Positions 12,399 to 46,609 of a stretch of 64,000 bases of DNA are shown one piece after another. Numbering within the stretch: position 1 is the stretch's first letter; every line of letters starts with the position of its first letter. This DNA comes from Actinotalea alkalitolerans (GTDB lineage Bacteria; Actinomycetota; Actinomycetes; Actinomycetales; Cellulomonadaceae): NCBI RefSeq assembly GCF_023369855.1, contig NZ_JAMBPP010000001.1:62001-126000 (forward strand). Direction: 5' to 3'. The position numbers and the translations under genes were made by a program. The notes beneath the pieces are model-generated. The model made no database searches. It was given only the letters and a program-made list of their open reading frames with translations, and was not told the DNA's origin.

Positions 12399-12424
12399 CG
12401 GATGGCTGTCCCACGCGCTACCGT
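12396..12424 (+). promoter_or_regulatory. candidate promoter of first Gfo/Idh/MocA gene
   Basis: TTACGG (12396-12401) and TACCGT (12419-12424) are 17 bases apart. The -35 is weak, but it is overlapped by the operator, as expected for a repressed promoter. Confidence 0.4.
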
Positions 12425-12497
12425 GCGCTCCAGGAACGACGACGACGCCATCGGCCCGCTGCGGGTCGCCGGCCCCACCCCGAGCGAAGGAGCTCCC

Positions 12498-25830: not shown

Positions 25831-26801
25831 GCCGCCGTCCGCCCACCTGGGTGCTGGCCTACCTCGTGCTCGCCGTGGTGTGGGGCTGCTCGTTCGCCTT
25901 CGTCCAGGTGGGTCTGCGGTCGCTGACCCCGGTGCAGGTCGCCTTCGGTCGGTTGTTCCTCGGCGCCCTGGCCCTGCTCGTGCTCTCGGCGGTGCTGCGC
26001 TCCCCGCTCCCCCGACGGCGGCGCACCTGGGGTCACCTCCTGGTGGTCGGGGCGATCCTCAACGCGGTGCCGTTCACGCTGTTCGCGGTGGGTCAGCAGC
26101 ACGTGTCCTCGATCCTCGCGGGGATCATCAACGCCGCGACCCCGTTGACCACCCTCGCGGTGATCCTGGTGGCCTACCCCGAGGAGCAGCCCACGCGACG
26201 CCGGGTGATGGGGCTGCTGCTCGGCTTCCTGGGTGTGGCCGTCGTCCTCGGTGTCTGGGAGGGCTTCGCGGCGGGCCAGTGGACCGGTGTCCTGGCCTGC
26301 CTGGGGGCGGTGACCTGCTACGGCATCGGCCTGCCCTACTCGAGGCGTCACCTGACCGGGTCCGGTGAGGGGCCGGTGGCGCTCGCGACGGGTCAGGTCA
26401 GCCTGGGCTGCCTGCTCATGGTCCCCGTCCTGCTCGTCTCAGGGGTCACCCCGCATGCCCCGGTCACCGCCGTGGTGGTGTGGGCGATGGTCGCCCTCGG
26501 CGCGCTCGGATCGGGGTTCGCCTTCGTCCTGAACTACCACGTGATCAAGCACGCCGGCGCGAGCACCGCCAGCACCGTCACCTACCTCACACCGCTGGTC
26601 GCGACGGTCGTCGGCATCGCGGTGCTGGGTGAGGGCATCACCTGGCACGAGCCCGTGGGCGGGCTTGTGGTGCTGGCCGGTGTGGCCCTCGCCCAGGGCC
26701 GGGGTCGACGACGCGGCGTCGAACCCGAGGTCCCGGTCGCGGCGGACGGCGTACCGGTCACAGCTGCCATGTCTGAAGCCGACCGCACATCCCGTACCTG
26801 A
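25827..26801 (+). CDS. EamA/DMT-family transporter
   Basis: The 324-residue protein has ten predicted helices in two EamA halves (VVWGCSFAFVQVGLRSLTPVQVAFGR in the first; TYLTPLVATVVGIAVLGEGITWHE in the second). GTG 25827 overlaps the preceding stop. Members export amino acids, nucleosides or other metabolites; the substrate is unknown. Its last 44 bases overlap the convergent cupin gene. Confidence 0.88.
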   Translation: MSRRPPTWVLAYLVLAVVWGCSFAFVQVGLRSLTPVQVAFGRLFLGALALLVLSAVLRSPLPRRRRTWGHLLVVGAILNAVPFTLFAVGQQHVSSILAGIINAATPLTTLAVILVAYPEEQPTRRRVMGLLLGFLGVAVVLGVWEGFAAGQWTGVLACLGAVTCYGIGLPYSRRHLTGSGEGPVALATGQVSLGCLLMVPVLLVSGVTPHAPVTAVVVWAMVALGALGSGFAFVLNYHVIKHAGASTASTVTYLTPLVATVVGIAVLGEGITWHEPVGGLVVLAGVALAQGRGRRRGVEPEVPVAADGVPVTAAMSEADRTSRT

Positions 26802-27516
26802 GCGGGCCGGGCCGGGCCGACGTCGAGTCGACGCTCGCCCCGGCCAGGTGGGTCCCCTCACCGCGCGCGAGGCCCGCGAGCGCCCCGAGGGTCTCGGCGG
26901 TGGACCGCTCGACACCCTCGTGCACGATCCTCTGCCACTGGGGGACGCGGTCGGAGACGAGCCGGGCGGCAGCCGCGTGCAGGGCGGTCAGCCCCGCGCC
27001 ACCGTCGCGCTCCACCCGATCTCGCAGCTCGGCGTACCCCGCCAGGGCCAGGTCGCGCCGGGTCCGGGCGGCCGCGGCGACCCGCTCGTCGTCGGGGGCG
27101 TCGTCGTCCTGGACGGGCAGGGTCACCGCCTCGCGGTAGCGCTCAGGGTCGGCCAGGACCTCCGCCGGGAAGGTCAGCACGGCGTCCCCGGCCTCGGGCA
27201 GCCCCGCGTTGGACATGATCACCACGAGGTCCAGCCCGCCGTCGTTGACCAGGCGGTGCACCACCCCGGGACTGAACCACACCACGACCCCGGGCGACAG
27301 GGGCGTCTCGGTGAAGCCCTCGGCGCTCAGCGTCTGCACCGACCCGCTGCCGCCGAGCACCACGTACCCCTCGGCCGAGGCCGTGTGCAGGTGCGGGGTG
27401 CCGCTGCCGACCAGCCCGGCGCCGTCGGGCGAGGGCCAGTCGTAGACCCGCAGCCGGCTCACCGAGGTGCCGCCGGGGAACGGCGTGCGGCTCACCGGGT
27501 CACCCGGTGCACCCAC
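26758..27516 (-). CDS. cupin-domain protein, last gene of oxidoreductase operon
   Basis: The 252-residue product has one cupin core: HLHTASAEGYVVLGGSGSVQTL (likely metal-site His and Glu) and SPGVVVWFSPGVVHRLVNDGGLDLVVIMSN. A helical C-terminal domain follows. It may be a sugar epimerase, isomerase or binding protein. GTG 27516 follows the DUF6807 stop by five bases, placing it in the same operon. The 3' end overlaps the convergent transporter gene by 44 bases, so the exact C-terminus deserves care. Confidence 0.72.
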   Translation of the reverse strand: MGAPGDPVSRTPFPGGTSVSRLRVYDWPSPDGAGLVGSGTPHLHTASAEGYVVLGGSGSVQTLSAEGFTETPLSPGVVVWFSPGVVHRLVNDGGLDLVVIMSNAGLPEAGDAVLTFPAEVLADPERYREAVTLPVQDDDAPDDERVAAAARTRRDLALAGYAELRDRVERDGGAGLTALHAAAARLVSDRVPQWQRIVHEGVERSTAETLGALAGLARGEGTHLAGASVDSTSARPGPLRYGMCGRLQTWQL

Positions 27517-27521
27517 GCCGA

Positions 27522-28502
27522 TCAGCCCTCACGTCCCGCGGACCAGGCCGCGAGCGCCTGCCGACCCCACGCCGCGAGCTCCTCGCCCCGGGCGGGGTCC
27601 GCGGCGCCGTCGGCGATCACCACGGCGTAGCGGAAGGTCAGCGACTCCCCTGGGCCGAAGGGCACCTCCTCGCTGAAGAACGGTGCCGGGTTGACCCCTG
27701 CGAACCACTCGTTGCGCATGAACCACTGCGGGGGGTGCTGCGGGTTCGTGGTGTCGTCGACCATCACCAGGGTCGAGTGACGCGCCGTCTGGTCGTGCTG
27801 GCCGGTGAAGCCCATCCACTCGGCCCGGGTGCCCCGGACCTCCTCGCCGCCGGCCGTCCCGGGCGCCAGGATCGTGCCCCCGGTGAAGGACCGCGGGCCG
27901 CGCCAGAACAGCCCGCCGTACCCGGCGTTCTCGCGGCCCTTCGTGGTGGGCGAGCCGATGTCGAGCTGCTCGTCGCTGACGTTGGTGATCGTCGAGGAGA
28001 AGGTCAGCACCCACACGTCGTCGGCGGGCACCGTGACCGCGAAGGCGCGCGCCTCGTGCACCACCTCCGTGCCGGTCTCCTGGCCCTCGGCGGGCTGGGT
28101 GCGCCACACCAGGTCGTGGGCGACGTGCACGCGGTCGTCGGTCACGTCCATCGCGGTGAACCGCTCGTGGTCCATCGAGCCGTCGTTGTCGAGCTGGACG
28201 TAGCCCTGCCCGTGGACGTAGTTGGGCCCGCCCCAGAAGTTGTGCGGCCCCACGTTGGGCAGCGACCACGCGATGCCCTTGTGCCACACGTGGTCGTGCG
28301 GACGGAACAGGCTCACCAGGTCACCACCCACGGTGTGCAGGGGGTGGAAGTAGGGCCGCGGCGACTCGAGCTGCACGTCGTCGGGTGCGTAGACGTAGGT
28401 GAGCAGGTCCTGCCCCTGGTGGGCGACCTGCACCGACCAGCCGACGTCGTGCCGCACGGTCAGGGCGGTGCGCTCGCGCCGCGGCGCGGGGGTGGTGCTC
28501 AT
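27522..28502 (-). CDS. DUF6807 (PmoA-like) protein
   Basis: The 326-residue protein matches the DUF6807 family, once labelled methane oxygenase PmoA although it is no methane enzyme. Landmarks are RPYFHPLHTVGGDLVSLFRPHDHVWHKGI near the N-terminus, GRENAGYGGLFWRGPRSF, and GFTGQHD further on. Conserved histidines (PLH, HDHVWH) suggest a metal or sugar site on a beta-sandwich. Function is unknown. Members often sit with Gfo/Idh/MocA oxidoreductases, as here, where ATG 28502 overlaps the upstream stop (ATGA). Confidence 0.82.
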   Translation of the reverse strand: MSTTPAPRRERTALTVRHDVGWSVQVAHQGQDLLTYVYAPDDVQLESPRPYFHPLHTVGGDLVSLFRPHDHVWHKGIAWSLPNVGPHNFWGGPNYVHGQGYVQLDNDGSMDHERFTAMDVTDDRVHVAHDLVWRTQPAEGQETGTEVVHEARAFAVTVPADDVWVLTFSSTITNVSDEQLDIGSPTTKGRENAGYGGLFWRGPRSFTGGTILAPGTAGGEEVRGTRAEWMGFTGQHDQTARHSTLVMVDDTTNPQHPPQWFMRNEWFAGVNPAPFFSEEVPFGPGESLTFRYAVVIADGAADPARGEELAAWGRQALAAWSAGREG

Positions 28503-29713
28503 GCGTGGTCCTCCTCGGTGGGTGCGGCCCAGGGTGCCCCGGTGCCGTCCATGCGCGGGTAGAAGGGGTGCCCGGGGCCGATGTCGCCGCGGCGCACCAC
28601 CTGCCCGGTGAACGCCGAGGCGTAGATCGCCGCGACCAGCTCCAGGGTGTCGCGCGCCTCGGCCAGGGTGACCGGGAGCGGGGCGTCGTCGTCCATCGCG
28701 TCGAGCAGCGCACCGACCTGGCTCGAGTGGCTGCTGCGCGGGGCCGCAGGGTCGGTGATCCACAGCGCGGCGAGGTCCTCGTGGCCGGGGGCAGGGGTGA
28801 AGGTCCAGTCCTCGTCGCCGTAGCCGTACAGGTGCTCGACCTCGAGGGTCGCGCGCTCGGTGTCGATCCGCAGCGAGGAGGTCTGACGCGGTGAGACCAC
28901 CGAGTTGACCACGGTGGCGAGCGCTCCCCCGGCGAACCGCACCACGGCCATCGACACGTCCTCGGTGGCGGTGTCACGGGCCTGGCGCCCGGCCATCGCG
29001 GTGACCTCCGCCCACGGACCGAGCAGCGCGAGCAGCAGGTCGAACTGGTGGATGCCGTGGCCCATCGTCGGACCGCCACCCTCGATCTCCCAGCGCCCGC
29101 GCCACGGCACCGCGAAGTAGTCGGCGTCGCGGTACCAGAGCGTGTGGCAGGTCGCGACGAGCGGTCGGCCGATCCCCGTGGGCACCCCGGGCTCCTCGCC
29201 CAGCCCACGGGTTCCGGCCGCCTCGAGCAGCGCACGGGCGCGCAGGGCCCCCGAGCCGAAGCGGTGCTGGAAGACCACGGCGACGTCCACCCCGGTGCGC
29301 TGCGAGACGGCGAGCAGCTCGTCGACCTCGGCGAGGCTGAGCGCGGGAGGCTTCTCGAGCAGCACAGGGACGCCCGCCTCGAGGCACTGGACGGCCAGCG
29401 GGACGTGCGAGCCGGGCGGGGTGCAGATGTGCGCGAGGTCCGGGCGGGGGTCGACGGGGGTCGACGGTGCGTCGTCGGTCCCGGTGGTGCTCGCGGTCCA
29501 GGTCCCCTGCAGTGCCGCGGCGAGGTCGGTGCTCCACCCCGCCAGGCCGTGCTGCACCGCGAAGGCCTCGGCGCGCGCGGGGTCCAGGTCGACCCCGCAC
29601 ACGACGTCGGCCCGCCCGGCGTGCGCGGCCACGGCCGCTGCGTGGGCACCGGCGATGCCGCCCGTGCCGACCACGAGGGTGCGGCGGCGCGGGAGGGTGG
29701 GTGTCCGGCTCAC
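28499..29713 (-). CDS. Gfo/Idh/MocA oxidoreductase (paralog of 12498-13580)
   Basis: The 404-residue protein has LVVGTGGIAGAHAAAV as nucleotide fold, EKPPALSLAEVDELL, and WRGRWEIEGGGPTMGHGIHQFDLLLALL. It is about 40 residues longer than its paralog at 12498-13580, partly through an insert near EAAGTRGLGEEPGVPTG. GTG 29713 overlaps the upstream stop. It is an NAD(P)-dependent sugar or glycoside oxidoreductase of unknown substrate, in one transcript with a second family member and DUF6807. Confidence 0.85.
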   Translation of the reverse strand: MSRTPTLPRRRTLVVGTGGIAGAHAAAVAAHAGRADVVCGVDLDPARAEAFAVQHGLAGWSTDLAAALQGTWTASTTGTDDAPSTPVDPRPDLAHICTPPGSHVPLAVQCLEAGVPVLLEKPPALSLAEVDELLAVSQRTGVDVAVVFQHRFGSGALRARALLEAAGTRGLGEEPGVPTGIGRPLVATCHTLWYRDADYFAVPWRGRWEIEGGGPTMGHGIHQFDLLLALLGPWAEVTAMAGRQARDTATEDVSMAVVRFAGGALATVVNSVVSPRQTSSLRIDTERATLEVEHLYGYGDEDWTFTPAPGHEDLAALWITDPAAPRSSHSSQVGALLDAMDDDAPLPVTLAEARDTLELVAAIYASAFTGQVVRRGDIGPGHPFYPRMDGTGAPWAAPTEEDHA

Positions 29714-31059
29714 AGCTCGATCCCCAGGTCCAGGTCGGCGATGGCGACGGCCTGCCGGGTCGCCATCGATCGGTTCGCGGCGATCCCGACCGCGACCGCC
29801 CGCACCCCGTCGACGTAGCCCGCCGGGCGTCCCAGGGGGTCGGGGCCTGCGCCGCGGAAGACGTCCGCGAGCAGGATGGCGTCGCCACCACCGTGACCGC
29901 CGATGCCGTCGGGGATGGGGTGCTCGGTGGCCCGCTCCCAGTGCTTCTGCACCAGCAGCCGGTCCCCGATCGGGCGAAGGGTGTCGCCCGCGAAGGCCTC
30001 GGGGGTGGCGCTGGGGTCCAGGATCGCGCGGCCGTGCTCGTCGAGCTCGACCGAGCCCCGTTCGACGACCTCGAGCTCGGCTCGGCCCGCGGTGCCGTTG
30101 ACGGTGACCCGGTAGCCCTCCCAGGGGGAGTGCGCGTTGAGGGAGTAGGTCAGGGTCGCGCCGCCGCGGTAGTCCACGAGCACGGCCATGGTGTCCTCGA
30201 TGGTGATGCCGGGGCCGAAGACGTCCTGGTCGCGCAGGTAGCCGTCGTGGTGCTCGGTGTCCAGGTAGAGGGCCTTGAGCCGGGGGTCGGCGTTGAGGTC
30301 GAGGCACCACGGGTCCTCGGGGGCGTCGGTGCCGCGCGCGGGCCTGGGGCCCATGCCCCGCTCGGCAGCCGCCTCGGCGCCGTAGAACCGCAGCGCACCG
30401 CTCGCGTAGACCCGCTCGGGGGTGTCGCCGAGCCACCAGTTGACCAGGTCGAAGTGGTGCGAGGACTTGTGGATCAGCAGGCCGCCGGACCTGTCCTTGA
30501 GCCGGTGCCAGCGGCGGAAGTAGTCGGCCCCGTGCACGGTGTCCAGCGCCCACTCGAAGTGCACCGAGGTCACGGTGCCGATCTGGCCCGAGGCGATGAC
30601 CTCCTTGAGCGAGCTGTTGCGCGGGGCGTAGCGGTAGTTGAACGTCATGACGACGTCACGGCCGGTGGACGAGACCGCACCGGTGATGGTGCGGCACCCC
30701 TCGGCGTCGATGGTCAGCGGCTTCTCGACCACGGCGTCGGCCCCGGCGGCGAGCGTGCGCGAGACCATCTCGGCGTGGGTGTCGTCGGGGCTCGTGACCA
30801 CCACGACGTCGACCCGGTGGTCGCCGATCATCTGCTCGAGCCCGTCGGGGGCGTAGCGGGGCAGGGTCCGCTCCGCCCGCCCTGCTGCGGCGTCTGCGAG
30901 GGCCACCTGGGCGTCGTAGTGGTCGATGCGACCGGGGTTGGGCTCGCACCAGGCGACCAGCTCGGCGACGTCGGCGTGCTCGCCGAGGATCGCGTCGATG
31001 TACATCTGTGCCCGGTGGCCGGTGCCGGCCACCGCGTACCTGCGTCGTCGGTGAGTCAC
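29710..31059 (-). CDS. Gfo/Idh/MocA oxidoreductase, long type
   Basis: The 449-residue product has the Rossmann start YAVAGTGHRAQMYIDAI, the VEKPLTID motif near residue 116, MTFNYRYAPRNSSLKEVIASGQIG, and the catalytic-region GGLLIHKSSHHFDLVNWWLG. A long C-terminal domain covers ATLTYSLNAHSPWEGYRVTVNGTAG. It is first of four genes ending with the cupin. A class B operator at 31100-31115 lies 41 bases upstream. The substrate is unknown; an imported pectic oligosaccharide or rare sugar is likely from context. Confidence 0.85.
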   Translation of the reverse strand: MTHRRRRYAVAGTGHRAQMYIDAILGEHADVAELVAWCEPNPGRIDHYDAQVALADAAAGRAERTLPRYAPDGLEQMIGDHRVDVVVVTSPDDTHAEMVSRTLAAGADAVVEKPLTIDAEGCRTITGAVSSTGRDVVMTFNYRYAPRNSSLKEVIASGQIGTVTSVHFEWALDTVHGADYFRRWHRLKDRSGGLLIHKSSHHFDLVNWWLGDTPERVYASGALRFYGAEAAAERGMGPRPARGTDAPEDPWCLDLNADPRLKALYLDTEHHDGYLRDQDVFGPGITIEDTMAVLVDYRGGATLTYSLNAHSPWEGYRVTVNGTAGRAELEVVERGSVELDEHGRAILDPSATPEAFAGDTLRPIGDRLLVQKHWERATEHPIPDGIGGHGGGDAILLADVFRGAGPDPLGRPAGYVDGVRAVAVGIAANRSMATRQAVAIADLDLGIEL

Positions 31060-31099
31060 GCGCGTCCTTGGTCGTGAGGGGTGGGTGGGCTCGGCGGCT

Positions 31100-31115
31100 G
31101 GGAAAGCGCCTTCCC
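31100..31115. promoter_or_regulatory. class B LacI-type operator before DUF6807 operon
   Basis: GGGAAAGCGCCTTCCC is a 16-base near-palindrome with a GCGC centre. It lies 41 bases before the minus-strand operon. A possible -10 (TAGGGT on the minus strand, 31126-31131) is just upstream, so the layout again puts the operator after the promoter. Confidence 0.65.
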
Positions 31116-31212: not shown

Positions 31213-32787
31213 ATGACGAACGCCCGCGCCACCGTCCTGCTGCATCCCGGGTACACGGTGGGCGAGGTCGACCGACGGCTCTTCGGCTCGTTCGTCGAGC
31301 ACCTCGGTCGGGCGGTGTACACCGGCATCTACGAACCGGGCCACCCCACCGCCGAGGAGCACGGCTTCCGGCGCGACGTGGCCGACCTGACCCGCGAGCT
31401 GGGCGTCACGATGGTCCGCTACCCGGGCGGCAACTTCGTCTCCAACTACGTCTGGGAGGACGGCGTCGGCCCGCGCGCGGAGCGCAAGCCGTTCATCGAC
31501 CTCGCCTGGCGCACCATCGAGCCCAACGAGGTCGGCACCGACGAGTTCCTGCAGTGGGCCGAGCGCGAGGGCATCGAGCCGATGATGGCGGTCAACCTCG
31601 GCACCCGCGGGGTCGCCGCTGCCGCAGCCCTGGTCGAGTACTGCAACGGCGAGGCCGGGTCACGCTGGGCCGACCTGCGCATCGCCAACGGCCGCACCGA
31701 GCCCTACGGTGTGCGGCTCTGGTGCCTGGGCAACGAGATGGACGGCCCCTGGCAGATCGGCCACAAGGACGCCCACGAGTACGGCAAGCTCGCCGCCGAG
31801 GCCGGCAAGGCCATGAAGCTCGTCGACCCGAGCATCGAGCTCGTGGCCTGCGGCTCGTCCTCGATGGAGATGGACACCTTCGGCGACTGGGAGCGGGTCG
31901 TGCTGTCCCACACCTGGGACGTCGTGGACCACCTCTCGATGCACGCCTACTACGAGGAGCACGACGGCGACCGCGCGAGCTTCCTGGCCTCGGGCACGTC
32001 GATGGACCGGTTCATCCGACGCGTGGTGGCGTCGGCCGACGCCGTGGCCGCCCAACGCCGCTCCGACAAGCAGATCACCCTCTCGTTCGACGAGTGGAAC
32101 GTCTGGTACCTCCAGTCGCGCTTCGTCGGCGAGAAGAACCTGCCCCTGCAGCGGGACGCCCCGCGCATCATCGAGGACGTCTACTCGGCCCTGGACGGCG
32201 TGGTCGTCGGCGACCTGCTGGTCACGCTGCTCAACCACGCCGACCGCGTCCCGGTGGCCTGCCTGGCCCAGCTGGTCAACGTCATCGCCCCGATCATGAC
32301 CGAGCCCGGCGGCCCGGCCTGGCGCCAGCCGACCTTCCACCCCTTCGCGGTCACCGCCCGGCACGCGCGTGGCCGGGCCATGGACCTGCGGGTCCAGGCA
32401 CCCACCGTGACCACCGCCCGGCACGGCGAGGTACCGCTCGTCACCGCCGCCGCGACCTGGGACGGGCCGCGCGAGGGTGCGGCTGGTCACCAGGACGCCG
32501 ATCAGGAGGCGAGCGGAGCGTTCGCCCTCTTCCTGGTCAACCGCTCGGCCGAGCCCGTCGAGGTCACCGTCGAGCACCCCGGCCTGGTCGTCGAGCTCGA
32601 GGGCGGCACCGAGCTCCTCGCCGACCACGAGCCCGCGGTCGAGGGACCCGAGCACGCCGCCAAGGTCGCGGTCGCGTGCCTGGGCGAGCCGGCCGAGCCG
32701 TCGGCCCGGACCGACGGATCGACCACCCTGGTGCTGGCCGCCGAGTCCTGGACCGCCTGGCACGGGACCGCGACCCGCACCCCCTGA
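31213..32787 (+). CDS. abfA: GH51 alpha-L-arabinofuranosidase
   Basis: The 524-residue enzyme has the GH51 retaining pair: acid/base E175 in WCLGNEMDGPWQ and nucleophile E294 in LSFDEWNVWY. RYPGGNFVSNYVWEDGVGP marks the substrate pocket. It removes terminal arabinofuranosyl units from arabinan, arabinogalactan or arabinoxylan oligosaccharides. No signal peptide is present, so it acts in the cytoplasm. The GH51 C-terminal beta-domain runs from about residue 380. It is divergent from the DUF6807 operon and probably handles RG-I side-chain fragments. Confidence 0.93.
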   Translation: MTNARATVLLHPGYTVGEVDRRLFGSFVEHLGRAVYTGIYEPGHPTAEEHGFRRDVADLTRELGVTMVRYPGGNFVSNYVWEDGVGPRAERKPFIDLAWRTIEPNEVGTDEFLQWAEREGIEPMMAVNLGTRGVAAAAALVEYCNGEAGSRWADLRIANGRTEPYGVRLWCLGNEMDGPWQIGHKDAHEYGKLAAEAGKAMKLVDPSIELVACGSSSMEMDTFGDWERVVLSHTWDVVDHLSMHAYYEEHDGDRASFLASGTSMDRFIRRVVASADAVAAQRRSDKQITLSFDEWNVWYLQSRFVGEKNLPLQRDAPRIIEDVYSALDGVVVGDLLVTLLNHADRVPVACLAQLVNVIAPIMTEPGGPAWRQPTFHPFAVTARHARGRAMDLRVQAPTVTTARHGEVPLVTAAATWDGPREGAAGHQDADQEASGAFALFLVNRSAEPVEVTVEHPGLVVELEGGTELLADHEPAVEGPEHAAKVAVACLGEPAEPSARTDGSTTLVLAAESWTAWHGTATRTP

Positions 32788-33875: not shown

Positions 33876-34475
33876 TCAGGGGGGGGTGAGTGCCCAGCGG
33901 TTCTCGACGGCCAGCACCGCCAGGACGAGCAGCCCGCCGACGACGAGCAGCAACGGCGTGAGCATCCAGACCAGGACCCCGCACATGCCCATCGCGACCA
34001 CGAGCAGCAGCGATCCGACCGGGTCGCGCACCGTGCGACGCGCAGCGGCCCGCACCGTGGGGATCACCTTCTGCCCGGGCGCCCACGCCCCGGCGGTCCG
34101 CAGCGCGACGACGGTCACGGCGGTCGCCACCACCGCGTTCACCGTGGCGACGGCTGACCCGCCCGGCAGCACGCCCGTCCCGGCGAGCCACAGGTTGTAG
34201 CCCAGCAGCAGCAGGACACCGGGCAGCAGCACGCCCACCGGCCACAGGTCGCGCACGGCCTTGACCAGGTCGCCCGCGAGGTCACCCAGCGAGTCGGCGC
34301 CACCGAGCAGGTGCCGGCGCAGGTGCACGACCCCGGCAGCGACCGCCGGCACCGCCGTGACCAGCGGCAGCGATGCCAGGAGCACCACGACCCCCACGAG
34401 CAGCACCTCGCCGAAGAGCGCGAAGCGTGCTCCGCGCCCCACGAGTGCGCCCTGGGGCGCGGACGGCTCGGTCAC
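33876..34475 (-). CDS. YesL-like DUF624 membrane protein
   Basis: The 199-residue protein begins (GTG 34475, overlapping the permease stop) with ALVGRGARFALFGEVLLVGVV. It has about five hydrophobic helices, with PAVAAGVVHLRRHL after the second as in DUF624/YesL proteins. YesL genes accompany CUT1 oligosaccharide transporters, including the B. subtilis RG-I yes operon; their role is unclear. As the last gene of this transporter operon it supports an RG-I oligosaccharide substrate. Confidence 0.78.
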   Translation of the reverse strand: MTEPSAPQGALVGRGARFALFGEVLLVGVVVLLASLPLVTAVPAVAAGVVHLRRHLLGGADSLGDLAGDLVKAVRDLWPVGVLLPGVLLLLGYNLWLAGTGVLPGGSAVATVNAVVATAVTVVALRTAGAWAPGQKVIPTVRAAARRTVRDPVGSLLLVVAMGMCGVLVWMLTPLLLVVGGLLVLAVLAVENRWALTPP

Positions 34476-35389
34476 CCCTTCAGGCCCTGGGTGGCGACGC
34501 CGCCGACGAGGTAGCGCTGGAAGACCAGGAAGAACAGCAGGACGGGGATCAGGGCGAGCACGGCCATGGCCATCTGCGCACCGTAGTCGGAGGTCGAGGT
34601 CTGGTCCACGAAAAGCCGCAGCGCGATGGGCAGCGGGTACAGGGCCGGGTCCTTGAGGTAGAGCAGGGGACCGAAGAAGTCGTTCCACGACCAGATGAAC
34701 GCGAAGATCGAGGAGGTGACCAGGGCGGGCTTCATCAGGGGCAGCATGATCGCGGTGAAGATGCGGATGTGCCCCGCGCCGTCGATGCGTGCGGCCTCGT
34801 CGAGCTCGCGGGGCAGGTTGCGCATGAACTGGACCATGAGGAAGACGAAGAACGCCTCGGCGGCCAGGAACTTGCCGATCAGCAGCGGCACGAAGGTGTT
34901 CACCAGGCCGAGATTGTTGAAGATGATGTACTGCGGAATGATCACGACGTGGAAGGGCAGCAGGAGCGTGGCGATCATCAGTGAGAACCACACCTTGCGC
35001 CCGGGGAACTCGATGCGTGCGAAGGCGTAGGCGCTGACCGAGGCCGAGAGCGTGATCCCGATGACCGAGGCCACGGCCAGGATCATCGAGTTCTTGAAGA
35101 AGGTCCAGAACGAGACCCCCCCGATGCCTTCGAGGGCCTTGGCGAAGTTGGCCAGGGACGCGTTGTCGGGGATGAGGCTGACGTTGCCGACGATGTCCGA
35201 CGTGGGCTTGAGCGAGGACATGAACATCCACAGCGCCGGGTAGAGCACCACCGCGGTGACCGCCAGGACGCCGATGTGGAACAGCACGGACTTGGTGCGC
35301 TCGGTCGAGCGGTTGCGACGGCGCAGTGCCGCGCTGCGCTCCTCGGACGTCGGCTCGACCGAACCGACCGGGACGTTGGCGATGGTCAC
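34472..35389 (-). CDS. carbohydrate ABC transporter permease, MalG type
   Basis: The 305-residue CUT1 permease has six helices and the EAA loop ELDEAARIDGAGHIRIFTAI, which docks the ATPase. The N-terminal 35 residues are polar, before VLFHIGVLAVTAVVLYPALWM. GTG 35389 overlaps the upstream permease stop. No ATPase gene is in the operon, as in many CUT1 systems that share one MsmX-like ATPase encoded elsewhere. Confidence 0.92.
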   Translation of the reverse strand: MTIANVPVGSVEPTSEERSAALRRRNRSTERTKSVLFHIGVLAVTAVVLYPALWMFMSSLKPTSDIVGNVSLIPDNASLANFAKALEGIGGVSFWTFFKNSMILAVASVIGITLSASVSAYAFARIEFPGRKVWFSLMIATLLLPFHVVIIPQYIIFNNLGLVNTFVPLLIGKFLAAEAFFVFLMVQFMRNLPRELDEAARIDGAGHIRIFTAIMLPLMKPALVTSSIFAFIWSWNDFFGPLLYLKDPALYPLPIALRLFVDQTSTSDYGAQMAMAVLALIPVLLFFLVFQRYLVGGVATQGLKG

Positions 35390-36345
35390 TTCGTCTCCCC
35401 CGAGTAGTGGACCCACGACTTCGAGGTCTTGAAGAACACGAAGGTGATGATGCCGACCACCAGGACCAGCACCCAGGCCATGGCCGAGGCGTAGCCCATG
35501 CGGAAGTCCACGAAGCCGCGCTGGTAGAGGTACAGGGTGTAGAAGAGTGTCGAGCCCGCCGGGCCACCCGTCCCGCCCGAGATGATGAACGCCGAGGCGA
35601 AGATCTGGAACGAGTGGATGGTCTCCAGGAGCAGGTTGAAGAAGAGCACCGGGGACAGCATCGGCAGGGTGATCTTGAGGAACTTGCGCACCGGTCCGGC
35701 GCCGTCCACCGCGGCGGCCTCGTAGAGCTCTGCCGGGACCTGCTTCAGGCCCGCCAGGAAGATGACCATCGGGGCGCCGAACTGCCACACGGTCAGCAGC
35801 ACGAACATCGGCATGGTCATGCTGGGGTTGCCCACCCAGCCGCCCCAGCTGATCCCGAGCTGCTGCCCGATGCGGTCCACGATGCCCTGGTCGATGAACA
35901 TCGCCTTCCACACGATGGCGATCGAGACGCTCGCGCCGATCAGCGAGGGGGCGTAGAACACCGAGCGGTACAGGCCCTGACCCCTGCGGGTGTTGTTGAG
36001 CAGCATCGCGACCGCCAGCGCCGCGGCGAGCTTGACCGGGGTGCCGACCAGCACGTAGATGCCGGTGACCTTGGCCGACTGGATGAACCGGGGGTCGTCG
36101 AACATCAGCCGGAAGTTGTCCAGGCCGATCCACTCCGGTGAGGAGAACAGGTTGTAGTTGGTGAACGCCAGGTACAGCGAGGCGAGCATGGGGCCGGCCG
36201 TCAGGGCGAAGAAGCCCAGCAGCCACGGTGTCAGGAAGGCGTAACCGGCCCGGGTCTCCGCCGCCCGCCGCCGCCGTCGGGTGACGGCGGGCGGCGGGAC
36301 GGTGGACAGACCTCCGGACCCGGTCACCTCACGTGTGAGGCTCAC
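35386..36345 (-). CDS. carbohydrate ABC transporter permease, MalF type
   Basis: The 319-residue permease has a polar, arginine-rich N-terminus (PAVTRRRRRAAETRAGYAFL), six helices, and the EAA motif in ELYEAAAVDGAGPVRKFLKI. It pairs with the MalG-type permease to form the channel for an imported oligosaccharide. It starts 45 bases after the binding-protein stop, and its own stop overlaps the next start. Confidence 0.92.
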   Translation of the reverse strand: MSLTREVTGSGGLSTVPPPAVTRRRRRAAETRAGYAFLTPWLLGFFALTAGPMLASLYLAFTNYNLFSSPEWIGLDNFRLMFDDPRFIQSAKVTGIYVLVGTPVKLAAALAVAMLLNNTRRGQGLYRSVFYAPSLIGASVSIAIVWKAMFIDQGIVDRIGQQLGISWGGWVGNPSMTMPMFVLLTVWQFGAPMVIFLAGLKQVPAELYEAAAVDGAGPVRKFLKITLPMLSPVLFFNLLLETIHSFQIFASAFIISGGTGGPAGSTLFYTLYLYQRGFVDFRMGYASAMAWVLVLVVGIITFVFFKTSKSWVHYSGETK

Positions 36346-36390: not shown

Positions 36391-37713
36391 CTACTGCGTC
36401 ATCATGGCGGCCTCGGCGAACCACGAGTCGACGAACTGCTCGATCGTGACGGTGCCGTAGGCGAGCTCCTCGGCGAGGCGCTTGTACTCGGCCTCGATCG
36501 AGCCGAAGCCCTTGACCGGGACCGGGACGGGCTCGGTCACGTGCTCGGCGACAGCGTCCTCGTACTCCACGACGGTGGCGTCGATGCTGCCCTCCTCGAG
36601 GACCATCGCGTCGCGCTGGGCCTGGTCGGCCGGCACGCCCTTGGAGGTGCCGAAGATCGCACCGACCTCGGGGTCGGTCAGCAGGAAGTCGATCAGCGTC
36701 GCGGCCGCCTCGGGGTGCTCGGTGTTCGCGCCGCTGGACAGCAGCATCGAGGGCTTGAAGAACATCGCCTTGTCGCCGCCGCTGCCGGTGGGGACGGGCA
36801 GCATCTGGATGTCCTCGGTGCCCGAGTCGGCGGTGTAGCCGGCCAGGAAGTTGTCCCAGCTGAACTCCGACGCGGACTCGTTGACCGTGAAGCCGCCCAG
36901 GGGGAGCAGCTGGATGCCGCGGTCGACCGGGTAGACCTGGCCGGCCTCGCGCAGGTCGGTGGTCAGCGCGAGGAAGTCGCTCATGTGCGACTCGTCGAAG
37001 CCGAAGGTGCCGTCGTCGTTGAACGGGGTGACGCCCTCCTGGACGAGCCACTGCAGGAAGAACCAGAAGGTGTTGGTGTAGTCGGCACCGCCGTAGATGG
37101 CCTGCCCGTCGGGCGTGGTCTCACCGGCGTCGGACACCGCGGCGAGGAACTCGTTGTAGTCCTCCCAGGTGTAGTCCTCGGCGGGGGCCTCGACGCCGGT
37201 CTGCTCGAGCAGACCGGGGTTGTAGAAGAGCGCGAGGGTGTTGGTGCTGGTCGGGATGCCGACCTGCTGGCCCTCCAGGACGCCGGACTGGACCAGCGCG
37301 TCGTCGAAGCCGCTCAGGTCGATCTCGTTGCCGATGTGAGTGCTGAGGTCAGCGAGGTGCCCGTTCTCGCTGTACTCGCGCAGGTAGGACAGGTCGAACT
37401 GCATGACGTCGGGCAGGGACCTGCTGGCGGCCTCGGTGGCGCGGGCCGTCCAGTAGTTGGGGAAGTCCTGGAAGCTGGTCTGCACGGTGATGTGGGGGTA
37501 CTCCTCGGTGAACAGCGCGAGGGACTCCTCGTAGCGCGACGCGCGGTCGTCGTTGCCCCACCAGGTGAAGGTGATGGTGACGGGCGTGGTGTCGTCGCCA
37601 CCGGTGGTGGGATCGGGCTCGGCGGCGGGGTCGTCGCCACCACCGGCACACGCGGTCAGGGTCAGGGCCGCTGCGGCGGCCAGCCCTACGGCCTTGAGTG
37701 TGAATCGATTCAT
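36391..37713 (-). CDS. carbohydrate ABC transporter substrate-binding lipoprotein
   Basis: The 440-residue family 1 solute-binding protein begins MNRFTLKAVGLAAAAALTLTAC, with lipobox LTAC at residue 22. It continues with the acidic linker AGGGDDPAAEPDP, then TFTWWGNDDRASRYEE and the usual closed-cleft core. It captures an oligosaccharide outside the membrane. The specific ligand is not visible; the YesL partner and PL11/GH42 neighbours suggest unsaturated RG-I oligosaccharides. A class B operator and promoter lie directly upstream. Confidence 0.92.
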   Translation of the reverse strand: MNRFTLKAVGLAAAAALTLTACAGGGDDPAAEPDPTTGGDDTTPVTITFTWWGNDDRASRYEESLALFTEEYPHITVQTSFQDFPNYWTARATEAASRSLPDVMQFDLSYLREYSENGHLADLSTHIGNEIDLSGFDDALVQSGVLEGQQVGIPTSTNTLALFYNPGLLEQTGVEAPAEDYTWEDYNEFLAAVSDAGETTPDGQAIYGGADYTNTFWFFLQWLVQEGVTPFNDDGTFGFDESHMSDFLALTTDLREAGQVYPVDRGIQLLPLGGFTVNESASEFSWDNFLAGYTADSGTEDIQMLPVPTGSGGDKAMFFKPSMLLSSGANTEHPEAAATLIDFLLTDPEVGAIFGTSKGVPADQAQRDAMVLEEGSIDATVVEYEDAVAEHVTEPVPVPVKGFGSIEAEYKRLAEELAYGTVTIEQFVDSWFAEAAMMTQ

Positions 37714-37740
37714 CGTGATGAGCCTCCTTGCTCAGTGGGT

Positions 37741-37752
37741 GAAAGCGCTTTC
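37741..37752. promoter_or_regulatory. class B LacI-type operator before ABC transporter
   Basis: GAAAGCGCTTTC is a perfect 12-base palindrome with a GCGC centre. It lies 28 bases before the binding-protein start and just downstream of the proposed -10. Confidence 0.75.
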
Positions 37753-37754
37753 CG

Positions 37755-40846: not shown

Positions 40847-42877
40847 ATGACCTCCCCTCGCACCCGCCCGTGGCCCGTCGACCTCGAGGGGCTCGGGTAC
40901 GGCGGCGACTACAACCCCGAGCAGTGGCCGGTCCAGACCCAGCTCGAGGACGTCGAGCTGATGCAGCAGGCGGGCGTGAACATCGTCAGCGTCGGGATCT
41001 TCTCGTGGGCGATGCTCGAGCCCCGCGAGGGCGAGTACGACTTCGACTGGCTCGACGCCGTCCTGGACCGGCTGCACGCCGCCGGGATCCGGGTCGCCCT
41101 GGCCACCGCGACCGCCTCGCCCCCGCCGTGGCTGACCCGCTACCACCCCGAGATCCTGCCCGAGCTCGCCGACGGCACCGTGCTGGGCCAGGGCGGCCGC
41201 CAGGCGTACTCGGTCTCCTCACCGGTGTTCCGCGACTACGCGCTGCGGATGACCCGCACCATGGCCGAGCGCTACGCCGACCACCCGGCCCTCGCGCTGT
41301 GGCACGTCGACAACGAGCTGGGCTGCCACGTGCCGCACGACTTCTCGCAGGACGCCGCGGTCGCGTTCCGTCGCTGGCTCGAGGCCCGCTACGGGACGGT
41401 CGAGGCGCTCAACGCGGCCTGGGGCACTGCCTTCTGGTCCCAGCGCTACGACACCTTCGACGAGGTGCTCCCCCCACGCACCGCCCCCACCTACGCCAAC
41501 CCGACCCAGCAGCTCGACTTCGCGCGGTACTCCTCGGACGAGCTGCTCACCCACTACCGGGCCCTGCGCGACGTGCTGCGCGAGGTCACCCCGCAGGTGC
41601 CCACCACGACGAACCTGATGGCCTCCACGGGCACCAAGTGGATGGACTACTTCTCCTGGGCCGATGACCTCGACGTCGTCGCGAACGACCACTACACCCG
41701 CGCCCACGACCCGGCCGCCCACATCGAGCTGGCCTTCAGCGCCGACCTCACCCGGGGCATCGCCGGCGGTGACCCGTGGATCCTCATGGAGCACTCGACC
41801 TCGGCCGTGAACTGGCAGCCGCGCAACCGCACCAAGGCCCCCGGTGAGATGCTGCGGCACTCGCTGTCCCACGTGGCTCGTGGCGCCGACTCGGTGATGT
41901 TCTTCCAGTGGCGGCAGTCGGCCGCGGGGGCCGAGAAGTTCCACTCGGCGATGCTCCCCCACGCCGGCACCGACACCGACGTCTGGCGCAACACCCTCAC
42001 CCTGGGGCAGGCGCTCAAGGCGCTCGCACCGGTGCGTGGCAGCCGGGTCCAGGCTGACGTCGCGATCCTGTTCGACTACCCGGCGTGGTGGGGCACCGAG
42101 CTCGACTCCCACCCGTCCCAGGACGTCACCTACGTCGACCAGGTGACGGCCTGGTACCGCCAGCTGTGGCACCGCGGGGTCACGGCGGACATCGTCTCGC
42201 CCCGCGAGGACCTGTCGTCCTACCGACTGGTCATCGTCCCCACCCTCTACCTGGTGACCGACGACGGCGCCGCCCGCGTGGCGGCCGCGGCAGCAGCCGG
42301 TGCCACGGTGCTGGTCACCTACTTCAGCGGGATCGTCGACGAGCACGACCGGGTCCGCCTGGGCGGGTACCCGGGGGCCTTCCGTGAGCTGCTCGGGGTG
42401 CGCACCGAGGAGTTCTACGCGCTCCAGGCCGGTGAGCGACTCACCCTGGACGACGGCGCGACCGCCGACCTGTGGAGCGAGAAGACCCACCTGGTGGGGG
42501 CCGAGGCGATGAGCACCTACACCGACGGGCTGCTCGCCGGATGGCCCGCGGTGACCCGTCACGCCGTCGGCACCGGTCACGCCTGGTACGTGGGAACCCG
42601 GCTCGACGAGGTCGGCGCCTCACGGCTGGCCGACACGCTGCTGCTGGAGTCCGGCGTGCAGCCCGTGGTCGACGCCGTCCCCGAGGGTGTCGAGGTGGTG
42701 CGGCGACGCGGCGGGGAGGTCGGTGGCGGTGCCGACGCGAGCTTCCTCTTCGTGCTCAACCACACCCCCGAGGAGGCGGTGGTCACCGCCCGCGGTGTCG
42801 ACCTGCTCACCGGCACCGCGGCCGACGGCGAGGTGCGGGTCGCCCCCCACGGCGTCGCCGTCGTGCAGGAGAGCTGA
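40847..42877 (+). CDS. GH42 beta-galactosidase
   Basis: The 676-residue enzyme has the GH42 retaining pair: acid/base E157 in WHVDNELGC and nucleophile E315 in ILMEHSTS. GYGGDYNPEQWP at the start is the family signature. A glutamine-amidotransferase-like trimer domain begins near residue 400, and a small beta-domain closes the chain. It is intracellular and releases galactose from galactan side-chain oligosaccharides; B. subtilis YesZ is the RG-I counterpart. It is convergent with the PL11 lyase, with a hairpin terminator between. Confidence 0.93.
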   Translation: MTSPRTRPWPVDLEGLGYGGDYNPEQWPVQTQLEDVELMQQAGVNIVSVGIFSWAMLEPREGEYDFDWLDAVLDRLHAAGIRVALATATASPPPWLTRYHPEILPELADGTVLGQGGRQAYSVSSPVFRDYALRMTRTMAERYADHPALALWHVDNELGCHVPHDFSQDAAVAFRRWLEARYGTVEALNAAWGTAFWSQRYDTFDEVLPPRTAPTYANPTQQLDFARYSSDELLTHYRALRDVLREVTPQVPTTTNLMASTGTKWMDYFSWADDLDVVANDHYTRAHDPAAHIELAFSADLTRGIAGGDPWILMEHSTSAVNWQPRNRTKAPGEMLRHSLSHVARGADSVMFFQWRQSAAGAEKFHSAMLPHAGTDTDVWRNTLTLGQALKALAPVRGSRVQADVAILFDYPAWWGTELDSHPSQDVTYVDQVTAWYRQLWHRGVTADIVSPREDLSSYRLVIVPTLYLVTDDGAARVAAAAAAGATVLVTYFSGIVDEHDRVRLGGYPGAFRELLGVRTEEFYALQAGERLTLDDGATADLWSEKTHLVGAEAMSTYTDGLLAGWPAVTRHAVGTGHAWYVGTRLDEVGASRLADTLLLESGVQPVVDAVPEGVEVVRRRGGEVGGGADASFLFVLNHTPEEAVVTARGVDLLTGTAADGEVRVAPHGVAVVQES

Positions 42878-42943: not shown

Positions 42944-45900
42944 CTAGCGGTCCACGCGCACGTCGACGGACCTCGTCTCGGTGACGCCCGCGGCGTTCTC
43001 GAGCTCGGCCGTGTAGGTGTACGTGCCGGGTGACCTGCCCTCGAGCAGGGTCCTGGCCTGCTGCGCGCGCGGGGTCGCCGCGGTCAGCTGCTGGGTGTCG
43101 ACCAGCCGGCCGTCCTCGAACAGCCGGTACACGGTCGCGTTGGTCCCCCACCACAGGTTCATGGTGACGGTGTAGCGACCGTCGCGGTCCCAGTTGTCGT
43201 GGGACAGCACCCCCTGGCCCGGGTTGGCGTCCCGGACCGTCACGGTGTGCGGCTGCGTGGCCGTCGTGCCGGCCGCGTTGACCAGCTCGCCGGTGTACAC
43301 GTACGTGCCGTTGGTACGGCCGGTCACCGGGACCGCGACCCGCTGGGCCGCGGGCGTGGCGTCGGTGAGCAGCTGGGAGTGGATCAGCGTCCCGTTCTCG
43401 TAGAGGCGGTACGTGGTGCCGTTCTGCCCCCACCACAGGTTCGCGGTGACGGTGAAGTCGCCGTCGCGCAACCCGGTGCCGTGGCCGTTGTCGTCGCTCA
43501 GGACGGCTCGGCCGGGTGCCGCGGCGGGCACCTGCGGTCCGGCGTGCTCGCCCACGGTGCGGATGCTGGGCGCCGGTGGCGTCTGCATGCCCTCACCGAG
43601 GAAGAAGCTGGTGTGCGGCGGCTGGTTGTAGCTGACGTTCTGCCAGGCCACCCCCAGGCGGTAGAGCGGGTCGTGCATCAGCGTGCGGATGCGGTGCTCG
43701 GTGACGTCGGTGGTCGTGAAGATGCGCAGGGCCGTGGAGTCGGTCGTGCGGTACATCAGCTCCTCGCGCCAGTCGCCGAAGAGATCGGCCTGCAGGGACG
43801 GGTTCCCCTTGGTGGTGTTGTTGGTCAGCACGCCTTCGGGTCGAAGGATCTCGACCTGCTCGGCGTTCTCCCAGTCCCACTTCGAGACCGTCGGGACACC
43901 GGTGGCCGTCGTCGCGTCGTAGTCGTGGTCGGCGATCTCCCGCAGGAGGTCCCCGTCCCACCAGGCGAGGTGGTTGGCCGCCGGGATGCTCTCGCCGATC
44001 AGCGTGCCGTCCGCCGCCCGGAGCTGCCCGACGGTCGAGTTCCAGGCGTAGTCGCCGCCGATGGCCCACGACTCGGCGCCCTCGTGACGCGGGTCGATGT
44101 CCCCCGCGGCGCCGCGGCCGGTGTCACGGCCCCCGGCGATGTCCCAGATGATCTCGCCCGTGGCGAGGTCCCGCATGGCGCCGGCCCGGTTGCCCGAGCA
44201 GCTCATGCACTCGAAGACGCTGAAGACCTCCAGGCCCGGACGTGAGGGGATCAGGTCACCCACGTGCATGGCGTCCCCGTGCCCCAGACCCGAGCTGTAG
44301 AGGACGCTGCCGTCGTCGTCGATGGTCAGCGCACCGAAGATGATCTCGTCCTTGCCGTCGCCGTCGGCGTCGGCCACCGAGAGCTGGTGGTTGCCCTGGC
44401 CCGCGTACTGGCGGCCGGCCACGTCGGAGTCGAAGACCCACCGCTGGACGAGCTTGCTGTCCACGACGTCCCACGCCGCGATGACGGTCCGGGTGTAGTA
44501 GCCGCGCGAGAAGATCACGCTCGGGCTCTCGCCGTCGAGGTAGGCCACGCCCGCGAGGAAGCGGTCGACCCGGTTGCCGTAGGTGTCGCCCCACGCCCCC
44601 ACGTTGCCGCGGCCCGGGACGTAGTCCACGGTGTCCAGGGCCTCACCCGTGAGGCCGTCGAACAGGGTCAGGTACTCGGGTCCGGACAGGATGTACCCGC
44701 CGGAGTTCCGGAAGTCCGCGTCGGGGTCGCCGATGACCGTGCCGACACCGTCGACCGTGCCGTCGGCGGTCTTGACGGTGACCTCGGCCCGACCGTCGCC
44801 GTCGAGGTCGAAGACCATGAGCTGGGTGTAGTGCGCCCCGGCCCGGATGTTGCGGCCCAGGTCGATGCGCCACAGCTTCTCGCCGGTGAGCGTGTAGGCG
44901 TCGATGTAGACGTTCCCGGTGGTTCCGGACTGGGAGTTGTCCCGGGCGTTGCTCGGGTTCCACAGCAGGACGACCTCGTACGTGCCGTCACCGTCGAGGT
45001 CACCGACGCTCGCGTCGCTCGCGATGTAGGTGTACTCCTGGCCGCCCGGGGTCACGCCGTCGGCCGGCTTGTCGAGCGGGATGTCGAGGTGCTGCTCGCC
45101 CCAGACGCCGAAGTCCTCGGTGGCGTCGACCTCGGTGGCCTCACCGACGACGGTGACCCGGTAGACCGAGTCGCCCGTGCCGGCGGGGTCGTGCAGGTTG
45201 GTCGAGCCGGTGAGCGGCTCGGGGGTGACCAGGGTGCCGTCGCGGTAGACGTTGAAGGCGATGGTGTCGGGGTCGGTGCCGAGCTGACGCCAGCCCACGT
45301 AGACACCGTCGTCGACGGACACGGCCACCGGGGCGCGGTCGAGGTGCTCGGCCTCGCGGACCAGCGTGGTCACGGCCGGCGTGGTCAGCACCTCGGAGAA
45401 GCCGCTCGAGCCGCCTGCGTTGATCGCCGCGACCCGGTAGTGGTACTCGACCGTGGTGAGCACGTCGGTGTCGGTGTAGGTCGGTGCGTCGACCCGGGCC
45501 AGCGGGGTGAACGGCCCGTCGGCGCTGCGGGACCGCTCGACGTCGTAGGCCAGAGCGGTCGGGTCACCCTGCCAGGTGAAGGTGAGCTGGTCCTTGGAGA
45601 TGTCCTCCAGGGTGAGCTCGGTGGGGATCGCCGGGGCGGCGACGCCCTCCTCGACGACCGCGACGGCGACGGCGGCTGACACCGCGCCCTCACGGCCGGT
45701 CGCGTCCAGGCCGGTCACGGTGTACTCGTAGCTGCCGGCGAGCAGGACGTCGGTGTCGGTGGCGGTGGTGCCGGTCTGCTCGACGACCAGCACCGGCTCA
45801 CCACCCGGTGTCGCGCGGTAGAGCCGGTAGGCGGCGAACTGGTCCGAGGCGTCCCACGCGAGAGCGACCGACGGCGCCGCGGTGTCCACACCCGTGACGA

Positions 45901-46480: not shown

Positions 46481-46571
46481 CAGTAGGGCTCCCAGGGGTT
46501 GACCGCTGGGGACGGGCACTGCCGGTGGGGCGGCGCCGTCCCTCCTCGGTGATCGACGGTGATGGACCGAG

Positions 46572-46588: not shown

Positions 46589-46609
46589 ATCGGGAAGCGC
46601 ATTCCCGAT
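46589..46609. promoter_or_regulatory. class B operator before PL11 lyase
   Basis: ATCGGGAA and TTCCCGAT are perfect inverted arms around GCGCA, with core GGGAA-GCGC-A-TTCCC. It sits five bases from the class A site and seven bases from the -10, so a second LacI-type protein could block initiation independently. Confidence 0.75.

Follow-up and report, generated by a model that had tools for sequence, protein, structure and literature searches.

An oxidoreductase-DUF6807-cupin operon in Actinotalea alkalitolerans as a candidate oxidation-based route for cleaving rhamnogalacturonan oligosaccharides

How are oligosaccharides of rhamnogalacturonan I (RG-I) taken apart inside a bacterium in whose genome the expected hydrolase finds no match? 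Cleavage by a PL11 lyase leaves an unsaturated end, and the step that follows is that of a GH105 unsaturated rhamnogalacturonyl hydrolase. The question is raised by a 64-kb stretch of contig NZ_JAMBPP010000001.1 from Actinotalea alkalitolerans (hereafter the window, to which coordinates refer unless a locus is named). It contains a PL11 gene and an operon for two Gfo/Idh/MocA oxidoreductases (GFO1 and GFO2), a protein of the DUF6807 family and a cupin. We propose, with a probability of roughly 45 percent, that this operon splits the uronosyl linkages of PL11-cut, imported RG-I oligosaccharides by oxidation and elimination. An earlier note on this DNA had suggested that the operon oxidises, cleaves or epimerises such an oligosaccharide; its observation is confirmed and its interpretation partly supported.

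The operon itself is real. All four genes lie on the minus strand and were assigned with Pfam: GFO1 (29710..31059, 449 residues), GFO2 (28499..29713, 404 residues), the DUF6807 protein (PF14100; 27522..28502, 326 residues) and the Cupin_2 protein (26758..27516, with an alternative start at 27495). GFO1 and GFO2 overlap in GTGA (29710-29713), GFO2 and DUF6807 in ATGA (28499-28502), and 5 bases separate DUF6807 from the cupin gene, or 26 if the latter begins with the GTG at 27495. The coordinates bear out the coupling by GTGA/ATGA overlaps or tiny gaps described in the earlier note.

An operator appears to tie the operon to its surroundings. The LacI-type palindrome GGGAAAGCGCTTTCCC, with up to 3 mismatches, has three sites in the window where 0.18 are expected, a number reached by 1 of 100 shuffles. 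The first (GGGAAAGCGCCTTCCC, 1 mismatch; 31100..31115, no strand being assigned to any of the sites) lies between the operon and a divergent gene for a GH51 arabinofuranosidase (31213..32787, plus strand; NCBIfam ArfA, above cut-off). The second (2 mismatches; 37739..37754) is found upstream of the gene for an extracellular solute-binding protein (36391..37713, minus strand; Pfam), and the third (3 mismatches; 46591..46606) upstream of the PL11 rhamnogalacturonan lyase gene (42944..46519, minus strand; RGL11_C, E 2.1e-241). These are the three sites that an operator common to the operon, the ATP-binding cassette (ABC) transporter and PL11, as claimed before, calls for. Of 80 relatives, 41 have an operator-like site with up to 4 mismatches upstream of the operon; among equally sized random windows from those loci, 61 of 2000 contain one. 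Judged from these sites, the operon is apparently switched together with the PL11 lyase.

What does the genome offer for the step after PL11? It holds two PL11 genes (C11 and C29), the first of them within the window. In the assembly, listed as 100 percent complete, GH88/GH105 (PF07470) has no match at E 0.001, with three control genomes positive, in line with the missing GH105-type hydrolase that had been claimed. GH4 (PF02056), GH28 (PF00295) and GH106 (PF17132) are likewise without a match at E 0.001, GH78 and other families not having been searched; among 14 control genomes each of the four profiles was positive in 2 to 6. Enzymes for rhamnose and an unsaturated uronate, the products to be expected, seem present, because rhamnose isomerase (RhaI), a fused rhamnulose-phosphate aldolase (RhaD) and KduI (397 vs 250 bits) score above their NCBIfam thresholds. 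The models for rhamnulokinase and rhamnose mutarotase give best matches that stay below their cut-offs (rhamnose genes at 4.9-10.2 kb), and KduD falls slightly short of its own (320 vs 339 bits; both Kdu genes at 58.4-61.0 kb). On these profile scores the use of both products seems encoded, and the families searched for their release are without a match.

A wider survey places this genome in a general pattern: PL11 is usually accompanied by DUF6807 and seldom by GH105. We surveyed 248 genomes drawn from the order and 394 from the class, taking E below 1e-40 as a strong GH88/105 match. The order draw has DUF6807 in 67 genomes (one, G005, via a fragment), PL11 in 50, and GH88/105 in 47 at any strength and in 15 at E below 1e-40. 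DUF6807 occurs in 42 of the 50 PL11 genomes versus 25 of the 198 others (Fisher p 5e-22, uncorrected for kinship), and in 40/46 versus 27/202 when four genomes with weak or partial PL11 (G126, G154, G167, G200) are discounted; by genus, a hand count finds a member with both genes in 20 of 25 PL11-bearing genera. The class draw gives 48/56 versus 36/338, and 37/45 for the PL11 genomes outside the order. Both draws combined, 79 of 95 PL11 genomes carry DUF6807 and 7 a strong GH88/105 match, on which grounds the intracellular breakdown of RG-I appears poorly explained by the known enzyme. The earlier note would have given up its idea had DUF6807 not co-occurred with pectin genes; the counts go the other way.

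Gene neighbourhoods were read in two sets. The first has 42 loci, namely the window, the second DUF6807 copy of the genome and 40 picked from the order-draw matches, a sample that is biased because its first 20 were taken from the top of the match list. The second comprises the best 80 of 548 relatives in named genomes, 4 of whose loci overlap with the first set; the nearest named relative is Actinotalea soli (87 percent). The maps come from a custom open-reading-frame caller, which can miss or misplace genes, and some labels derive from blast to the window's or the loci's own genes and manual naming. Within eight genes of DUF6807, the 42 loci have a GFO2-like gene in 31 cases, a cupin in 18 and GFO1 in 16. 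Among the 80 named relatives, a Gfo gene stands within two genes of DUF6807 on the same strand in 74 and a cupin in 66, and the locus contains ABC genes in 58, rhamnose genes in 8, PL11 in 9 and either PL11 or rhamnose genes in 14, where PL11 was counted from gene labels (a DNA-level count that required 50 percent coverage missed PL11 even in the labelled loci). The fullest arrangements are those of four Nonomuraea loci with permeases, binding protein, GFO2, DUF6807, cupin, PL11 and LacI, of two further Nonomuraea loci with GFO2, DUF6807, cupin, PL11 and LacI, and of two Isoptericola loci that run from binding protein and permeases through a small gene, PL11, GFO2, DUF6807 and cupin to GH42 and rhamnose genes.

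The least characterised member of the operon is a clear member of its family: it matches PF14100 with 267.1 bits (E 2.6e-79, profile positions 2-269 of 270) against a curated cut-off of 27 bits. Its predicted structure is a beta supersandwich (predicted local distance difference test score, pLDDT, 95.7), for which Foldseek lists a GH174 fucanase first among PDB entries (E 1.3e-5) and, weakly, galactose mutarotases; a profile search of the PDB found no relative (best E 1.3). An assignment as aldose 1-epimerase GalM was rejected, as Pfam gives PF14100 alone at E 0.1 and the fold likeness is weak. So was one as a Mn-dependent 3-keto-glycoside eliminase of the OGE/CGE type, of which there is none by title in the best 50 of 649 Foldseek rows. 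Across 38 sequences D70, H71, H74, E150, Y195, R201, R263 and several Gly and Trp residues are invariant, so that a strict DHxxH motif includes both of the conserved histidines that the earlier note had pointed to. These residues resemble an active site. A PF14100 gene in the metagenomic clone Lac161 forms a putative operon with two reported beta-galactosidases, a mere hint, because the available part of that report includes no test of the PF14100 protein (PMC5342196).

For GFO1, the top 11 Foldseek rows are sulfoquinovosidase chains with E values down to 5e-29 and 20-21 percent identity, from the 8qc entries (GH188) and 8zn9 (titled novel sulfoquinovosidases). The best sequence-profile match is 8qc2 (E 2.5e-26), with ordinary dehydrogenases close behind in both lists. 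By predicted fold and by profile GFO1 has its nearest neighbours in GH188, which is nearness and not membership. By a residue offset counted by hand, Tyr136 and His193 of ArSqgA fall on Y142 and H201 of GFO1; the offset may be imperfect, since for Glu163 the same count misses a Glu of the solved chain by one residue, and H201 is non-diagnostic, since it aligns with inositol dehydrogenase 4hkt as well. GFO1 retains the EKP lysine. It has an invariant H389 in GGHGGGD, the stretch around His321 of ArSqgA lying outside the alignment, and an invariant, basic-rich run, HGADYFRRWHR, which may form an anion site, adjoins the residues that align with ArSqgA's sulfonate-binding loop.

Could GFO1 then do the work alone, as a complete uronosidase of the GH188 kind that depends on nicotinamide adenine dinucleotide (NAD)? 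GFO2, DUF6807 and the cupin would in that case process another part of the oligosaccharide or the released sugar, a mutarotase-like DUF6807 converting anomers or C-epimers being one example. The sulfoquinovosidase folds nearest to GFO1, the faint GalM character of the DUF6807 fold and ten Cellulomonas loci in which GFO1 is the sole Gfo beside DUF6807 would all suit such an enzyme. The usual partner of DUF6807 is nevertheless GFO2 (paired in 59 of the 80 named relatives, with GFO1 in the locus in 16), and an identity to GH188 structures of 20-21 percent is low, which makes this explanation, its mutarotase form included, unlikely.

GFO2 has its best profile matches in 3q2i (1.8e-57) and 3q2k, which we take to be WlbA, followed by DgpA (1.4e-41), glucose-fructose oxidoreductase and a glucuronide-3-dehydrogenase (2.1e-31). 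Both oxidoreductases were tried against two specific models. The inositol 2-dehydrogenase model IolG (TIGR04380, cut-off 355 bits) gives 92.1 bits for GFO1 and 63.2 for GFO2; the BT_2158 glycoside 3-dehydrogenase model (NF058561, cut-off 750 bits) gives 27.5 bits for GFO1 and does not list GFO2 at E 0.1, which places neither in the BT2158/BT2159 family. The kinship of the Gfo pair speaks more for C3-oxidation of glycosides and for glycosidases that depend on NAD than for inositol dehydrogenase.

Many Gfo enzymes act on free sugars, and the operon might oxidise or isomerise rhamnose, galactose, arabinose or an inositol-type polyol with no glycoside cleavage at all. Rhamnose genes do share the locus in 8 of the 80 relatives, and the neighbouring GH42 and GH51 enzymes would release galactose and arabinose. 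Against this stand the IolG scores far below the cut-off, the rhamnose isomerase and aldolase already encoded in the window, and the nearest solved relatives of GFO2, which include glycoside and nucleotide-sugar 3-dehydrogenases, though also glucose-fructose oxidoreductase; we regard a free-sugar role as improbable.

DUF6807 also occurs in fused form. In the 42 loci a cluster of 632-703-residue proteins comprises seven Gfo-fused and five LacI-fused members (blast sees both parts in 6/7 and 5/5, and Pfam confirmed one fusion of each type). The Gfo fusions are found at L049:7981-10026, L050, L052, L053, L054 (cluster only), L055 and L060, and also at L031; those of L049, L050 and L055 adjoin an AXE1-like esterase gene and candidate oxidative uronate-pathway genes. 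The LacI fusions (L057, L058, L063, L064 and L071, for example L071:9339-11303) combine a regulator with an enzyme-like sugar domain. On a tree, 62 DUF6807 sequences fall into two deep sides (support 100/100): the one of 40 members holds stand-alone proteins, the window's included, and the one of 22 holds every fused form in the tree, L027 and L031 among them as Gfo fusions, together with the genome's second DUF6807. A role of DUF6807 in binding sugar, as a sensor or carrier domain beside Gfo enzymes that alone are catalytic, would match the LacI fusions in 5 of 42 loci and a LacI-family gene somewhere in 48 of the 80 named loci, yet the invariant D, H, H, E, Y and R across 38 sequences, the fusion to Gfo enzymes and the tight coupling to enzyme genes look catalytic, and the deep split of the tree separates the LacI fusions from the protein of the window, so that we hold this role to be very unlikely here.

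How would oxidation and elimination at uronosyl linkages proceed? From gene order, the shared operator, co-occurrence, the four unmatched glycosidase families, folds and kinships we infer the following course, including its assignment to proteins. PL11 would cut RG-I and the neighbouring ABC system import the oligosaccharides. Using NAD, one or both Gfo enzymes would oxidise the uronic acid, either galacturonate or the 4,5-unsaturated form of it, at C3, after which the glycosidic bond, most simply one between a uronosyl unit and rhamnose, would be lost through elimination. DUF6807 is the likeliest lyase or hydratase, and the best candidate for the eliminase because it is kept while its Gfo partner varies. 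The cupin and the second Gfo might complete hydration, isomerisation and re-reduction. In the cupin H35, H37 and E42 are nearly invariant and H80 invariant among relatives, a His/Glu motif that is presumably the usual cupin metal site; its profile search of the PDB found no informative relative (best E 0.023). The net result would be a free uronate, which then enters uronate catabolism, together with either rhamnose or an oligosaccharide that is shorter than before.

Several observations weigh against oxidative cleavage by this operon, or at least limit it. Co-presence of PL11 and DUF6807 alone could also mirror a plant-polymer life-style, and the two genes are within 25 kb of each other in just 13/42 (order) and 3/37 (outside the order) of the genomes holding both; they are on different contigs in 17/42 and 20/37. 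Strong GH88/105 matches in the order are found in 2/42 PL11 genomes with DUF6807 versus 4/8 without (p 0.004), where two of those four genomes have a weak PL11 and dropping the doubtful ones leaves 2/40 versus 2/6 (p 0.08); outside the order the figures are 1/37 with and 0/8 without DUF6807. At E below 1e-5 they are 9/42 versus 5/8 in the order and 5/37 versus 0/8 outside it. That DUF6807 excludes GH105 is suggested at best, because the effect fades without the weak PL11 matches and does not recur in the second sample. Of the earlier idea that the operon replaces GH105, the absence of a match to that family in this genome stands; that the operon takes the place of GH105 in particular is a conjecture. 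Nor are two Gfo steps obligatory at the locus, because in the ten Cellulomonas loci the Gfo gene beside DUF6807 is GFO1 and not GFO2 (which one of them has farther off) and most other genera have GFO2 near DUF6807 and no GFO1 nearby.

The uronate genes near DUF6807 call for similar caution. Putative uronate-catabolism genes occur in 18 of 41 loci (window excluded) versus none of 40 control stretches taken from 20 of these genomes, an enrichment that is partly circular because the markers had been chosen from these very loci; in the named set just 7 of 80 loci have them. The markers were either glucuronate isomerase, a fructuronate-reductase-like gene and a galactarate/altronate-dehydratase-family gene, or an epimerase-like gene together with a dihydrodipicolinate-synthase-type gene. 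UxaC is above its cut-off and the UxuB-like gene below; the "altronate dehydratase" member tested belongs to the galactarate/altronate-dehydratase family by Pfam but scores below the galactarate cut-off of NCBIfam, and in the putative oxidative set the epimerase matches generic models alone. Most of these genes serve saturated uronates and not the unsaturated product of GH105. DUF6807 is not confined to RG-I loci, and its theme seems wider, given uronate-gene loci without PL11 and the LacI- and Gfo-fused forms; the LacI fusions suggest sensing in some members. The fold likeness of DUF6807 is at the level of class (template-modelling score by query 0.26-0.46 in 26 rows with E up to 0.001). No function or activity was found for DUF6807, PF14100 or the "PmoA family protein" in the literature searched, which omitted most subscription journals and all preprints, consistent with the earlier statement that the family has no known function.

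A bolder form of oxidative cleavage can be drawn. In it DUF6807 is the first of a new family of mutarotase fold that acts on 3-keto-uronosides as lyase or hydratase, and it is, together with Gfo, the usual actinobacterial partner of PL11 in place of GH105. In the furthest version of this idea, oxidation of the unsaturated galacturonosyl unit at the allylic C3 would be followed by an elimination that yields an aromatic hydroxypyrone (comenic acid, in our own drawing), whose ring the cupin would open. We consider this form doubtful as a whole; DUF6807 has a real chance of being a new enzyme family.

Other genes nearby deserve mention. The transporter includes ABC permease 1 (35386..36345) and permease 2 (34472..35389), both BPD_transp_1 and on the minus strand, with a 199-residue protein downstream (33876..34475, minus strand; the scanned 198-residue stretch has no Pfam match at E 0.1), and a GH42 beta-galactosidase gene lies at 40847..42877 on the plus strand. 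A protein with a weak GH43 match, under cut-off, is encoded at 11391-12389 next to a third Gfo gene (12423-13580), both beside the rhamnose genes and a LacI gene; several relatives (L037, L044, L047, L066) have such a pair adjoining DUF6807. The second DUF6807 of the genome (G000:C11:16968-17810, locus L003) has GFO1-like, GFO2-like, ABC transporter and LacI genes nearby, as well as galactarate/altronate-dehydratase-family, UxaC-like and UxuB-like genes. A recurring module next to DUF6807 loci combines GfoX, DUF993 (listed by Pfam as a protein of unknown function) and a xylose-isomerase-like triosephosphate-isomerase barrel (L067:12798-16050, L038:16220-17401), the three clusters spanning 9, 8 and 8 loci. 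A conserved protein beside DUF6807 in L048:13502-14569 (355 residues) and six more loci has no match in Pfam (E 0.001) or NCBIfam (E 1e-5). Close to the DUF6807 operon, some loci encode large proteins with a right-handed beta-helix (L103:3113-5860, L104:11579-14101, L107:11643-15368, L119:12010-14217, L113:11825-15913), which are possibly unlisted pectin lyases or hydrolases.

If oxidative cleavage holds true, DUF6807, a family of unknown function, would gain a job, oxidation-based glycan-cleaving systems would extend to pectin, and predictions of pectin utilisation for actinobacteria would change. PF14100 has also been used as the methane-oxidation marker PmoA, as the available text of PMC10291797 has it; such counts may report sugar genes, because Pfam now names PF14100 DUF6807, and if oxidative cleavage is right the usage would need correcting.

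How does the operon compare with known systems? GH105 is unlike it in fold and chemistry and supplies a step that seems to be missing here. The WlbA-type dehydrogenases (3q2i, 3q2k) are the best full-length relatives of GFO2; WlbA oxidises C3 of a uridine diphosphate uronate and is a biosynthetic nucleotide-sugar enzyme, unlike the catabolic role proposed for the operon. The glucuronide-3-dehydrogenase P2B11 (PDB 8tdi) has, by its title, a uronoside substrate and is related to both Gfo proteins, distantly so (Foldseek gives it 18 percent identity with GFO1); the literature searched yielded no paper about this enzyme. Single NAD enzymes that remove sugars via C3 oxidation are, in the accessible text of PMC10755693, those of GH4, 109, 177 and 179, to which 188 was added. 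The earlier note had taken GH109 for the known case, and of this larger set GH188 comes nearest. Its sulfoquinovosidases (SqgA) share the Gfo fold and the best profile and fold match with GFO1, act on a substrate that is anionic at C6 and fill the place of a missing hydrolase, as far as that text describes them (PMC10755693). GFO1 differs from them in being longer, in its identity of 20-21 percent and in sitting with a second Gfo, DUF6807 and a cupin. This last feature recalls the four-enzyme operons for oxidation, elimination, hydration and reduction, namely GlycDH/AtOGE/AtHYD/Gfo of Agrobacterium tumefaciens and PUE, which in the part of PMC10628242 available likewise join a dehydrogenase and a second oxidoreductase to two further proteins, and GFO2 is related to DgpA. 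The eliminases described there share a Mn2+ site, AtOGE being of the sugar-phosphate-isomerase type; in the operon of Actinotalea alkalitolerans DUF6807 and a cupin stand in their place.

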